The notes beneath the pieces were generated by a model. The model saw nothing but the letters and a program-made list of their open reading frames with translations. It did not search any database and was not told the DNA's origin. Shown here piece after piece: positions 32,266 through 39,366 of a stretch of DNA of 56,344 nt (the first letter of the stretch is position 1; each line of letters starts with the position of its first letter). The translations under genes and the position numbers were made by a program. The stretch covers positions 1-56,344 of the forward strand of contig NZ_NHRY01000136.1 of the NCBI RefSeq assembly GCF_002937115.1. Direction: 5' to 3'. The stretch comes from Rhodopila globiformis (lineage in GTDB: Bacteria; Pseudomonadota; Alphaproteobacteria; Acetobacterales; Acetobacteraceae).

Positions 32266-32342
32266 GCCGCCCCTGTTCTGCCTCATTGCATATCGGGATT
32301 AAGGGGCAGTTAAGGAGGGATTTGGCGCCGCGACCGTTCTCA

Positions 32343-32422
32343 CCGTCATGGCCGGGCGTGTCCCGGCCATCTGCGCTTCAACGGTAGGGGGCGGATGGCC
32401 GGGACACGCCCGGCCATGACGG
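32343..32422. repeat. 80-base palindromic (REP-like) element, intergenic copy
   Basis: Arms 32343-32371 and 32394-32422 are exact reverse complements (29 bp, beginning CCGTCATGGCCGGGCGTGTC), separated by a 22-base unpaired middle. Each arm is itself partly self-complementary (GGCCGGG/CCCGGCC). The arms are identical to those at 38189-38268. Confidence 0.85.
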
Positions 32423-32514
32423 AGAAGCAACGGTCGGCTCAACGCCGGTGGTGCCGATAGCTAACGATTTCGATTCGATTCACAATACGCGCCTGCCGCG
32501 CAACGGACAACCAC

Positions 32515-36800: not shown

Positions 36801-36927
36801 TGGTTTCCTGGTCGGCACGGCGGTGACGCTGATCTTTCTGCCAGCGCTCTATGCCGCGTGGTTCCGGATCAAGGAGCCGCCGGCGGACGTCGTCGCCGCG
36901 GCACCCGCACTGGGCGCCGAGCGATGA
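33856..36927 (+). CDS. RND family efflux pump inner-membrane subunit
   Basis: A 1023-residue pump of the AcrB/HAE1 superfamily. Features: cytoplasmic start MGFNISKWALEHRSFV, TM4 proton-relay acids in LGLLVDDAMTTIDVM (near residue 402), and the TM10-11 repeat unit GILALIGMIARNGVILVDQIE followed by FRPIMLTAISTVLGLIPIA. Two large periplasmic loops follow TM1 and TM7. Start is GTG at 33856. Its stop overlaps the mnhE-like start (ATGA), so pump and antiporter genes appear to be one operon. Substrate cannot be read from the sequence. Confidence 0.9.
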   Translation: MGFNISKWALEHRSFVVYLMIASMLAGLVSFRSLGRDEDPAFVIKTMVVQAAWPGATINDTLQQVTERLERALQETPHLDFLRSYTQPGRTTIFVNLKGATPASEVPDAWYHVRKNIADMRHTLPAGVVGPGFNDEFGDTFGIIYGFTADGFTHRELRDYVDSVRSKLLLVPDVSKVEMLGAQDERVFVEFSMQRLAGLGIDRSALIAALQAQNIVSPAGVIQTGNEQLLLRVTGAFESEEDLRNINFVANGRMIRLRDIADVRRGFADPPKPLFRVNGKPAIGLAISMREGGDVLALGRNVEKAIHDITADLPLGINPILVADQPHVVEHAISDFTTSLWQAIAIIMAVSFVSLGARAGLVVAISIPLTLAIVFPIMQLAGIDLQRISLGALIIALGLLVDDAMTTIDVMTTRLAAGDSKEQSAAYAYTTVAIPMLTGSFVTAAGFIPIGFARSSAGEYTFSIFVVVGVSLIVSWIVAVLFAPLLGVWLLKRPKPTDKPSRILTGFRGTVVGALRRRWLTIGVTAGCLAVALALSPLIPRQFFPPSDRPELLVDLRLPQNASIFATDDAATRLSKVLAKDPDVASWSTYVGRGAIRFYLPLAVELPNDFFTQTVVIAKDVAARKRLQARLEEVLANQFPSAISRVSPLGLGPPVGWPIQYRVSGPDITQVRDIALRLAGVVSGDPDATHVNFDWMEPARRVRIKIDQDQARLLGLSSQALAAVLQSVVTGTTVTQLRDGIYLVDVVARATDEQRVSLETLRNVQLPLPNGRTVPLSQLASFDFDQEYPLIWRRDRVPTLTVQADVAPGTLPETVVGNLAPAVQALSAGLPVPYRIEVGGTVEESANSQASVKAVVPLMLLVMITFLMMQLQRFSLLALVLIIVPMAMTGVVAALLLFQQPLGFVAILGILALIGMIARNGVILVDQIETERAEGKAPWDAVIDASVSRFRPIMLTAISTVLGLIPIAATIFWGPMAFAIMGGFLVGTAVTLIFLPALYAAWFRIKEPPADVVAAAPALGAER

Positions 36928-37403
36928 CCGTGCCGGCGATCCTGCGGCGGGGGGCGGGCTTCCTGGCGCTGTGGCTGGTGCTGGCGGGGCTGAACCCGGG
37001 CGACCTTCCCGCCGCGATCGTCGCCGTTGTCGCCGCGACCTGGGTCAGCCTGCGCCTGTTGCCGCCGGGCGACCGCATCATCTCACTGCCGGGCCTCGGG
37101 GCCCTCGCCGTGCGCTTTCCGCGCCAGTCGCTGGAGGCGGGGATCGATGTGGCGCGCCGCGCCTTCGCGCCGGACTTGCCGTTGAACGTCGGCACCGTTG
37201 GCTACACGCCGCGCCTGCCAGCGGGGCCGGCGCGCGACGCCTTCCTGGCTTATGCCAGCCTGATGCCGGGCACGGTTCCGGTCAGCGTGAATGGCGGCGT
37301 AACGATCATGATCCACTGCCTCGATACGCGACAGGCGGTCGTGCAGCAGATGGCGAACGACGAAGCCCGCTTCATCCGCATGCTGGGCGGCGCCGATGCC
37401 TGA
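36924..37403 (+). CDS. mnhE: Mrp-type cation/proton antiporter subunit E
   Basis: A 159-residue MnhE/MrpE subunit: two N-terminal hydrophobic segments and a cytoplasmic domain with PRFPRQSLEAGIDVARRAF-like sequence, LMPGTVPVSV, and IHCLDTR. The ATG at 36924 overlaps the RND gene stop. Subunit E helps assemble the Na+/H+ (or other cation) antiporter complex encoded by the next six genes. Confidence 0.85.
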   Translation: MTVPAILRRGAGFLALWLVLAGLNPGDLPAAIVAVVAATWVSLRLLPPGDRIISLPGLGALAVRFPRQSLEAGIDVARRAFAPDLPLNVGTVGYTPRLPAGPARDAFLAYASLMPGTVPVSVNGGVTIMIHCLDTRQAVVQQMANDEARFIRMLGGADA

Positions 37404-37650
37404 GTTCCTGCTGCTCGCCGCCACCGTCATCCTGCTGATGGTGGCCGTCGGCCTGGTCCGCATCCTGCGCGGACCGGCGGACGTGGACCGGTTGATGGCG
37501 GTGCAACTGCTGGGCACCGGCGGCATCGCCGCCCTGCTGCTGCTGGGCATTGCGACGTCATTGCCGGGCGCGGTGGATGTCGCGCTGGTCCTGGCGCTGC
37601 TGGCGGCGTTCGCGGCCGTGATCTTCGTGACCAGCCTGGATTCGCCATGA
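37396..37650 (+). CDS. mnhF: Mrp-type antiporter subunit F
   Basis: An 84-residue, three-helix MnhF subunit with LVRILRGPADVDRLMAVQL, the family hallmark. Overlaps mnhE by 8 bases and mnhG by 4. Confidence 0.88.
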   Translation: MPEFLLLAATVILLMVAVGLVRILRGPADVDRLMAVQLLGTGGIAALLLLGIATSLPGAVDVALVLALLAAFAAVIFVTSLDSP

Positions 37651-37940
37651 TGCTGCTCGGGGACATCGCCACCGGTCTGCTGGTGTCGGCGGGCGTCGTG
37701 TTCTTCCTGGCCGGGACTGTCGGGCTGCTGCGGTTTCCGGATTCGATGACGCGCCTGCACGCGCTGACGAAGGCCGACAGCCTGGGCCTCGGGCTGGTCG
37801 TGCTGGGCCTGTTGCCGCAGGCGGCCAGCGTGCTGGAGGCGCTGAAGCTGGTTGCGGTCTGGCTGCTGACGCAGCTTGCGGGGGCGACGGTGACGCAGCT
37901 TGTGGCGCGGGCGATCTGGCGCGGGGGCGGACGGTCATGA
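37647..37940 (+). CDS. mnhG: Mrp-type antiporter subunit G
   Basis: A 97-residue MnhG subunit: three hydrophobic segments with GTVGLLRFPDSMTRLHALTK, the conserved MnhG motif. Four-base overlaps on both sides. Confidence 0.88.
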   Translation: MMLLGDIATGLLVSAGVVFFLAGTVGLLRFPDSMTRLHALTKADSLGLGLVVLGLLPQAASVLEALKLVAVWLLTQLAGATVTQLVARAIWRGGGRS

Positions 37941-39046
37941 GCCTGGCGCTGCTCGCGGACGGCGCCCTGGTCCTGCTGGTCCTCGGCCTGGCGTTCTGGG
38001 TCAACGCGGCGGCTAGCGGGTTTGCCGCGGTCGTCGGCTACGTCGCGTTCGGTTTGCTGCTGGCGCTGGCCTGGATGCGCCTTGCCGCCGGCGACGTGGC
38101 GTTGACCGAGGCCGCCGTCGGCAGTGGCGCCACCGGCGCGGTGCTCGTCGCGGCGGCCATGCGGCTGCGCGCGGCGGCCGATCCCCCACCGTCATGGCCG
38201 GGCGTGTCCCGGCCATCCACCCCCAACCGTCGAAGCGCGGATGGCCGGGACACGCCCGGCCATGACGGCGGGGGAGACGACCTTGCTCCGCCCGCCCCTT
38301 ATTCTGATAGCCACCGGGACGTGCCCGGCCATGACGAAGGGGGCAAGCCCGGCCTGTCCCTGCGCCTGGCCGCCCTGGTCCTGTCGGGCCTGGTGACAGC
38401 CGGCCTGGCGGGGTTGGTGCTCTGGACCGCCGGCCCCGCGCCCAGCCTGGCCGAGGCAGCCACGCGGCATCTGCCCGGGCTGGGCATGGGCAACGCCGTG
38501 ACCGGTGTGCTGATCGCTTACCGGGCGCTGGATACGCTGCTGGAGAAAGTGGTGCTGCTGCTGGCTTTGGGCGGCGTCTGGTCGCTGACTCGCGACAGGG
38601 TCTGGGGCGGCCGCCCGTTCCCGCGCGCAATTCCAGCCGGCAACGGCGCGCTGATCCTGCTGGCCCGGCTGTTGCCGCCGATCGGCATTGTCGTCGCGGT
38701 CTATGTCCTTTGGGTTGGCGCCACCGATCCGGGCGGCGCGTTCCAGGGTGGCGCGATCCTGACGGCCATGTGGATCCTGGTCATGCTCGCCGGCCTGCGT
38801 GACGCCCCGCCGATCGGCAGTCGCCGGCTCAGGCTGGCCGTTGCCGCCGGGCCGGCTGCGTTCCTGGCCGTGGGGCTTGCGGGCTTTGTCCTGCCAACCG
38901 GCTTCCTGTCCTACCCCGAGAGCATCGCGAAACCACTCATCATCGCCGTCGAGGCGGTATTGACGCTGTCGATCGCGCTGATCCTCGGCCTGCTGGTTGC
39001 CGGCCCCGCGGAGCGGCCGCCCGACCCCGCGGAGCGGCTGAGATGA
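37937..39046 (+). CDS. Fused MbhD/MbhE (MrpA C-terminal) and MnhB subunit with an inserted repeat
   Basis: A 369-residue protein joining three antiporter pieces. Residues 1-80 are an MbhD-like domain (AGDVALTEAAVGSGATGAVL), residues about 145-215 an MbhE-like segment (GNAVTGVLIAYRALDTLLEK), and residues 230-358 MnhB (GGAFQGGAILTAMWILVML). MbhD and MbhE correspond to the C-terminal end of MrpA in seven-subunit Mrp complexes. Between the first two, residues about 83-137 are a hydrophilic stretch rich in P, G, D and R that is encoded by a palindromic repeat (38189-38268) and a further half unit; it keeps the frame open and has no membrane character. Start and stop overlap neighbours by 4 bases. 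Confidence 0.82.
   Translation: MSLALLADGALVLLVLGLAFWVNAAASGFAAVVGYVAFGLLLALAWMRLAAGDVALTEAAVGSGATGAVLVAAAMRLRAAADPPPSWPGVSRPSTPNRRSADGRDTPGHDGGGDDLAPPAPYSDSHRDVPGHDEGGKPGLSLRLAALVLSGLVTAGLAGLVLWTAGPAPSLAEAATRHLPGLGMGNAVTGVLIAYRALDTLLEKVVLLLALGGVWSLTRDRVWGGRPFPRAIPAGNGALILLARLLPPIGIVVAVYVLWVGATDPGGAFQGGAILTAMWILVMLAGLRDAPPIGSRRLRLAVAAGPAAFLAVGLAGFVLPTGFLSYPESIAKPLIIAVEAVLTLSIALILGLLVAGPAERPPDPAERLR
38189..38268. repeat. 80-base palindromic (REP-like) element inside a coding region
   Basis: Arms 38189-38218 and 38239-38268 are exact 30-bp reverse complements, beginning CCGTCATGGCCGGGCGTGTC, with a 20-base middle. The arms match the intergenic element at 32343-32422. Here the element lies inside an antiporter subunit gene and is read in frame. 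Confidence 0.9.
38314..38336. repeat. Partial palindrome arm inside the same gene
   Basis: CCGGGACGTGCCCGGCCATG and the following ACG repeat the right arm of the element 45 bases upstream with one change, so the insertion was either compound or two successive events. Confidence 0.7.
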
Positions 39047-39366
39047 CCCCGGCGACGCTCTACGGCCTGTGCAGTGCCGTGCTCGTCGGCGCCGGGCTGT
39101 ACGGCATGCTGGTCAACCCACAGCCGCTGCGGAAGATCCTGTCGCTGAACCTGCTGGGCAGCGGCACGTTCCTGCTGTTCGGCGTGATCGCCCGGCGCGG
39201 CGCGGCCGCCGGCCTGGGGGGGGATCCGGTCCCGCAGGCGATGGTGATCACCGGCATCGTCGTCGCCTTCTCGGCCACCGCGCTCGCCGTCGCGCTGCTG
39301 CTGCGCGTGTTCCAGGAGACCGGCCGCCCGACGCTGGACCAGCCGGCGCCGAAGGACGGCGGATGA
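39043..39366 (+). CDS. mnhC: Mrp-type antiporter subunit C (NuoK-like)
   Basis: A 107-residue, three-helix NuoK/MnhC-type subunit. It has GLYGMLVNPQPLRKILSLNL and PVPQAMVITGIVVAFSATA, both family hallmarks. Overlaps with neighbours by 4 bases each. Confidence 0.88.
   Translation: MTPATLYGLCSAVLVGAGLYGMLVNPQPLRKILSLNLLGSGTFLLFGVIARRGAAAGLGGDPVPQAMVITGIVVAFSATALAVALLLRVFQETGRPTLDQPAPKDGG

Follow-up and report, generated by a model that had tools for sequence, protein, structure and literature searches.

A CGTC-tagged palindromic repeat read in frame within an antiporter subunit gene of a Rhodopila-type genome

The available text of the survey of Di Nocera, De Gregorio and Rocco (2013, PMC3733652) describes the CGTC-REP superfamily as having an unpaired CGTC, a stem of 8–9 bp starting from a complementary AT, a loop of 4–5 nt and a 3-nt tail that is mostly CCA, with head-to-head dimers prevailing and with sites chiefly between unidirectional or convergent genes. 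The same text knows of no dedicated transposase for the superfamily, calls grouped CGTC elements rare while describing exceptions, reports intragenic copies in several species, and states that the Acetobacteraceae are without CGTC-REPs. Palindromic elements within genes have also been described in Rickettsia, namely RPE-4 and RPE-6, which are of the CGTC type, and RPE-1 (PMC3733652, PMC10969869, as far as their available text goes). According to the same material, nearly half of the copies reported in Rickettsia conorii lie within genes.

The stretch of DNA analysed here (56,344 nucleotides, referred to as the window) belongs to a draft genome of 7.25 Mb of Rhodopila, a genus of the Acetobacteraceae. 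It carries, inside an antiporter subunit gene, a composite repeat made of a head-to-head dimer, a spacer and a third half (Table 1). The 80-bp element with perfect 30-bp arms announced in a preliminary description of the window was recovered at 38189-38268, and its arms reach 38182-38218 and 38239-38275 if mismatches are allowed (97%). The tail of the left arm is CCA. The intergenic copy, which had been placed about 5.8 kb away, is indeed 5846 nt off from start to start. Its arms had been called identical to those of the in-gene copy, and this holds for segments of 31 nt (left) and 32 nt (right) but not for the last base of the 30-base left arm, which differs. The half-site pattern has five matches in the window, against none in 100 shuffles.

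Table 1. Coordinates of the antiporter locus in the window, of its repeat, and of repeat copies within other genes
Feature	Location	Strand	Remarks
Intergenic head-to-head copy of the window repeat	32340..32425	.	
MnhE-type antiporter subunit	36858..37403	+	Upstream of host gene
MrpF-type subunit	37396..37650	+	Upstream of host gene
MnhG-type subunit	37647..37940	+	Upstream of host gene
Antiporter subunit gene, MbhD-(MbhE)-MnhB fusion	37937..39046	+	369 aa; insertion host
Composite CGTC-REP: dimer in head-to-head orientation plus spacer and third half	38176..38350	.	Residues 80-138; outer ends approximate
Left arm	38189..38218	+	30 bp; CGTC tag, stem ATGGCCGGG, loop CGTGT, stem CCCGGCCAT
Loop separating the dimer arms	38219..38238	.	
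Right arm	38239..38268	-	Exact reverse complement of left arm, 30/30
Spacer of the composite form	38269..38311	.	One module recurs near arms elsewhere
Third half-arm	38312..38336	-	2 mismatches to half-site pattern
Subunit with Oxidored_q2 domain	39043..39366	+	Downstream of host gene
HypF copy	L069:15364-15540		Residues 199-258, between zf-HYPF 157-187 and YrdC 270-444
RND transporter (AcrB-family) copy	L136:5410-5515		
CobN copy	L164:7129-7234		
Alanine racemase copy	L178:8584-8689		
HypF linkers with differing CGTC-type REPs	L069:15364-15540, L219, L225, L226, L220		Four species

The host gene stands among other antiporter subunit genes, the downstream one being presumably MnhC. In the relative G006 (G025 is similar), a short repeat array directly precedes this antiporter gene (L032:2449-2660). 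A Pfam search of the host protein returned MbhD (residues 13-78) and MnhB (241-356) and, with a score under the curated threshold (14.7 vs 27 bits), MbhE (148-219). The claims that the repeat lies in frame in an MbhD/MbhE-MnhB fusion gene, between domains, and would be translated into a hydrophilic segment were all borne out at the level of the sequence. The element contains no stop in the frame of the gene, which is open throughout 37937-39046; the insert occupies residues 80-138, MbhD stopping at 78 and the sub-threshold MbhE beginning at 148; and the hydropathy of residues 81-138 is -1.49, versus +1.08 for the remaining protein. The predicted structure of the host protein is uninformative (mean pLDDT 39.3), and the coil that this low-confidence model shows at residues 82-139 is suggestive at most. 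The repeat-coded loop is probably unstructured, and the flanking arginines suggest that it would lie on the cytoplasmic side.

Three relatives (G006, G025 and G034) are without the repeat, and all three have a short MbhD-MbhE linker. In the window protein this linker is longer by 51 residues than in G006 and G025, its two closest relatives; the comparison is limited by divergence (79–80% identity, with no base-exact empty site). The short linker of the repeat-free relatives supports the insertion, in frame, of a dispersed palindromic repeat, as the preliminary description had it. None of these near relatives has an equally long, unrelated linker in place of the repeat, the outcome that had been named as a refutation. 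In the distant G049 (same class, other family) the linker has an unrelated sequence and is neither as short nor as long as these (by eye, about 26 residues), which indicates that linker length varies even without repeats.

Exact half-sites of one subtype number 388 (198 + 190) in the whole genome, and the reversed pattern gives none; the same exact pattern occurs 0 to 96 times in each of 58 other genomes, with at least one match in 31 of them. When up to two mismatches are allowed, 335 of 353 half-sites have the CGTC tag, a stem of 9 and a loop of 5, counts that lean towards tag and stem since the search pattern itself contains the tag and most of the stem, and that cover a single loop length, fixed by the ungapped pattern. 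There are two subtypes, nearly equal in number. Among the 353 half-sites, the 9-bp stem is ATGGCCGGG in 158 and ATGGCCCGG in another 158, the loop is CGTGT in 160 and CTTGT in 152, and the tail is CTG in 143, CTA in 81, CCA in 58 and CCG in 32. Stem positions 2-9 are paired in 97–99% of the half-sites but position 1 in no more than 53%, owing to the A-C that the majority of subtype-B copies carry there.

The surroundings of the repeats were studied in 120 stretches besides the window (2,065,137 bases, or 2.07 Mb, 28% of the genome), a non-random sample in which many contigs were chosen for listed repeats and most early stretches begin at contig ends. The 481 half-sites, grouped in 241 clusters, include 139 head-to-head twins, and 35 of 132 clusters have at least three halves. 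Dimers accompanied by a further half some 44 nt away recur in the genome. In an alignment of 27 such places, about ten, among them the window copy, have a spacer module in common as judged by eye. This module is found close to an arm in 24 of the 241 clusters, with 31 occurrences in those stretches. The second partial arm noted earlier in the window is real, and the recurrence of the composite with its spacer module shows that it belongs to the element, as the third arm of this form. The outer ends of the composite were placed by conservation, only to about 14 nt past the arms. The genes neighbouring 235 clusters are unidirectional in 113 cases, convergent in 68, divergent in 26 and undetermined in 28, compared with 298, 123, 130 and 49, respectively, for a null of 600 positions. 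A RAYT was considered as the mover of the window repeat and dropped, as a search of the genome for Y1_Tnp (RAYT-type) gave no match.

Coding classes were assigned with a purpose-built phase-aware coding model, at an arbitrary threshold. Of the 241 clusters, 169 are noncoding on both sides, 46 have coding sequence on one side, 9 have it on the same strand in different phase, 9 lie at edges, 6 are in frame in coding sequence, and one each falls in the classes of opposite strand and of a stop in the same frame. Among the six, L136:4504-4556 was rejected as a chance match: it is a single half that has four mismatches and lies in coding sequence of ordinary appearance, and the reversed control yielded one match as well. 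In-frame copies within genes thus make up 5 of the 232 classifiable clusters of this non-random sample (the chance match is still counted in the denominator; the proportion is 4 of 231 without the window copy, which was known beforehand), versus 1332 of 3000 random positions. The genome-wide count of copies that had been proposed was made on 28% of the genome, where few among all copies are in frame within genes. The statement that such copies are rare outside Rickettsia was not supported, as this sample contains at least four further in-gene copies, and intragenic REPs are reported in several other species (PMC3733652).

For two of the further recipients the relatives are informative: the insertion is missing from all four near CobN orthologues and from all eight alanine racemase relatives. 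The racemase insert, of about 40 residues, lies within the N-terminal domain, directly ahead of HVDTGMSRLG, and a pure linker rule therefore does not fit. The remaining matches in the search for this racemase gene were repeats only. The left arm reads SWPGVSR in four of the five in-frame genes and RHGRACPGHP in the racemase. Long open frames at the repeats, of up to 841 codons, were discarded as evidence of genes. Of 30 clusters in 20 stretches around such frames, none was classed as in frame within coding sequence: 19 were noncoding and 8 one-sided, and the classes of opposite strand, edge and stop had one each. An open frame at these GC-rich repeats is weak evidence. In an ABC transporter ATPase gene (Pfam ABC_tran), the frame enters a repeat at the C-terminal end (L164:13195-13300). 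At L068:6246-6353, a coding sequence that looks caspase-like by eye is apparently broken by a subtype-B repeat; a Pfam search of both pieces gave no match, and this broken gene stays putative.

HypF was matched in 11 of the 33 genomes of the genus, the window's own included, and its linker was read in eight of them (for G006 and G025 from separate pieces lying on two contigs); the linker pattern returned nothing for G024, G004 and G015. REP arms are present in the linkers of four of the eight genomes (G000, G008, G006 and G025), and no arms were found in those of G020, G019, G030 and G010 (two copies). The G019 linker (L222) consists of 60 residues without recognisable repeat arms. Across the four species with arms, the slot holds three REP stem-loop types, two of which have the same stem and different loops, and each type is abundant in its own species. 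The arms of G008 have the stem ATGGCGGGC, while those of G006 and G025 have the stem ATGGCCGGG, the loop CTTGG and a TGTC tag; this type, common to both genomes, may have been inherited together. The ATGGCGGGC type peaks in G008, with 91 sites, compared with between 14 and 45 in the other four genomes covered, and the CTTGG type (up to two mismatches) has 45 sites in G006, 48 in G025, 91 in G008, 15 in G026 and 5 in G000. A tentative reading, possible rather than probable, is that the linker between the HypF zinc finger and YrdC serves REPs of the genus as a permanent landing slot, filled by repeated entry or changed by conversion in place while the protein keeps its frame. It fits only partly, since the CTTGG type is commonest in G008, whose slot holds another type. 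Different REPs at about one site are also described for recB of two Xanthomonas species in the available text of PMC3733652.

The frames are open in 53% of cases as a mean over the 139 dimers, and the mean chance that a random insertion of these twins is both open and length-preserving is about 0.24 (24%), assuming ends 14 nt past the arms; in the absence of removal, broken genes should therefore exceed in-frame ones. The five in-frame cases compared with one putative broken gene suggest that breaking insertions are lost, in numbers that are small and with a coding test that is less sensitive to broken than to intact genes. In all likelihood, the window repeat is a selfish and near-neutral CGTC-REP that inserted in the MbhD-MbhE linker, and of whose copies mainly the in-frame, tolerated ones survive. 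A CGTC-tagged REP family with a composite dimer-plus-one form would have expanded in the window's species, and one copy would have landed in the short MbhD/MbhE linker of an Mrp/MBH-type antiporter subunit. This copy would by chance have been open in the frame it entered and have kept the downstream frame, the gene then encoding, in comparison with its nearest relatives, a hydrophilic and probably unstructured loop of about 51 additional residues. Among the insertions of such a repeat, those breaking a gene would disappear, and those in frame at tolerant places would persist.

It is unlikely that the insert has been co-opted, with the repeat-coded loop or an mRNA hairpin tuning antiporter assembly or downstream translation. 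The host gene does stand in a tightly packed gene row, and the RNA of 38160-38360 folds at -130.3 kcal/mol (z -7.40), which none of 200 shuffles equals; an effect on translation may exist because of this strong fold. However, the dimer arms are unadapted and match copies elsewhere in the genome, three relatives manage without the insert, and unrelated genes receive the same repeat. Still less likely is an artefact of assembly or strain mixing, with a false contig joined at the repeat: although the draft consists of 278 contigs and, in each of two relatives, HypF is divided between two contigs where its linker bears the repeat, the frame is open, both flanks match their orthologues in order, and the same pattern is seen in four other genes. 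That the two halves are separate proteins with the repeat lying between their genes is hardly credible, even though MbhD-like and MnhB-like proteins are distinct chains in the solved complexes 6u8y and 6cfw, because the repeat-free relatives have a single continuous frame over the linker and the element is without a stop in this frame.

The antiporter insert is real and in frame, and the best reading of it is that a member of an already known repeat class inserted with a near-neutral effect. What is added is an extension of lineage, together with a countable set of parallel in-gene cases: CGTC-REPs that read as protein now extend to a genome of the Rhodopila type, whose family is called empty of the class in the available text of the 2013 survey (PMC3733652). 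The copies are plentiful enough for counting selection against gene breakage, and one of them lies in the sole alanine racemase gene that the genome yielded. The mover of CGTC-REPs, of which that text (PMC3733652) knows none, may well be sought in a species as rich in near-identical copies as this one.

With GTAG REPs and REPINs, which are moved by RAYTs, the window repeat shares short palindromes, inverted dimers and hundreds of dispersed copies, but its end is CGTC rather than GTAG, and its genome is without Y1_Tnp. Our literature search found no paper joining CGTC repeats with RAYT, and none of the matches listed from 2014 on was relevant to in-frame repeats. The resemblance to the CGTC-REPs of Alphaproteobacteria, as they appear in the available text, extends to the CGTC end, the 9-bp stem starting from AT, the 5-nt loop and the head-to-head dimers, as well as to a preference for sites outside genes, a scarcity of divergent neighbours and the presence of some in-gene copies. 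In contrast to what is described there, the tail is mostly CTG or CTA and less often CCA, groups of three or more halves make up 35 of 132 clusters where that text uses the term rare (for which it shows no threshold), and the class occurs in a Rhodopila-type genome rather than being missing from the Acetobacteraceae. The in-gene copies resemble RPE-4, RPE-6 and RPE-1 of Rickettsia, likened here by their description in the available text, in that palindromes are read in frame in unrelated genes; whereas nearly half of the copies reported for Rickettsia conorii lie in genes, about 2% of the classifiable clusters do so here.
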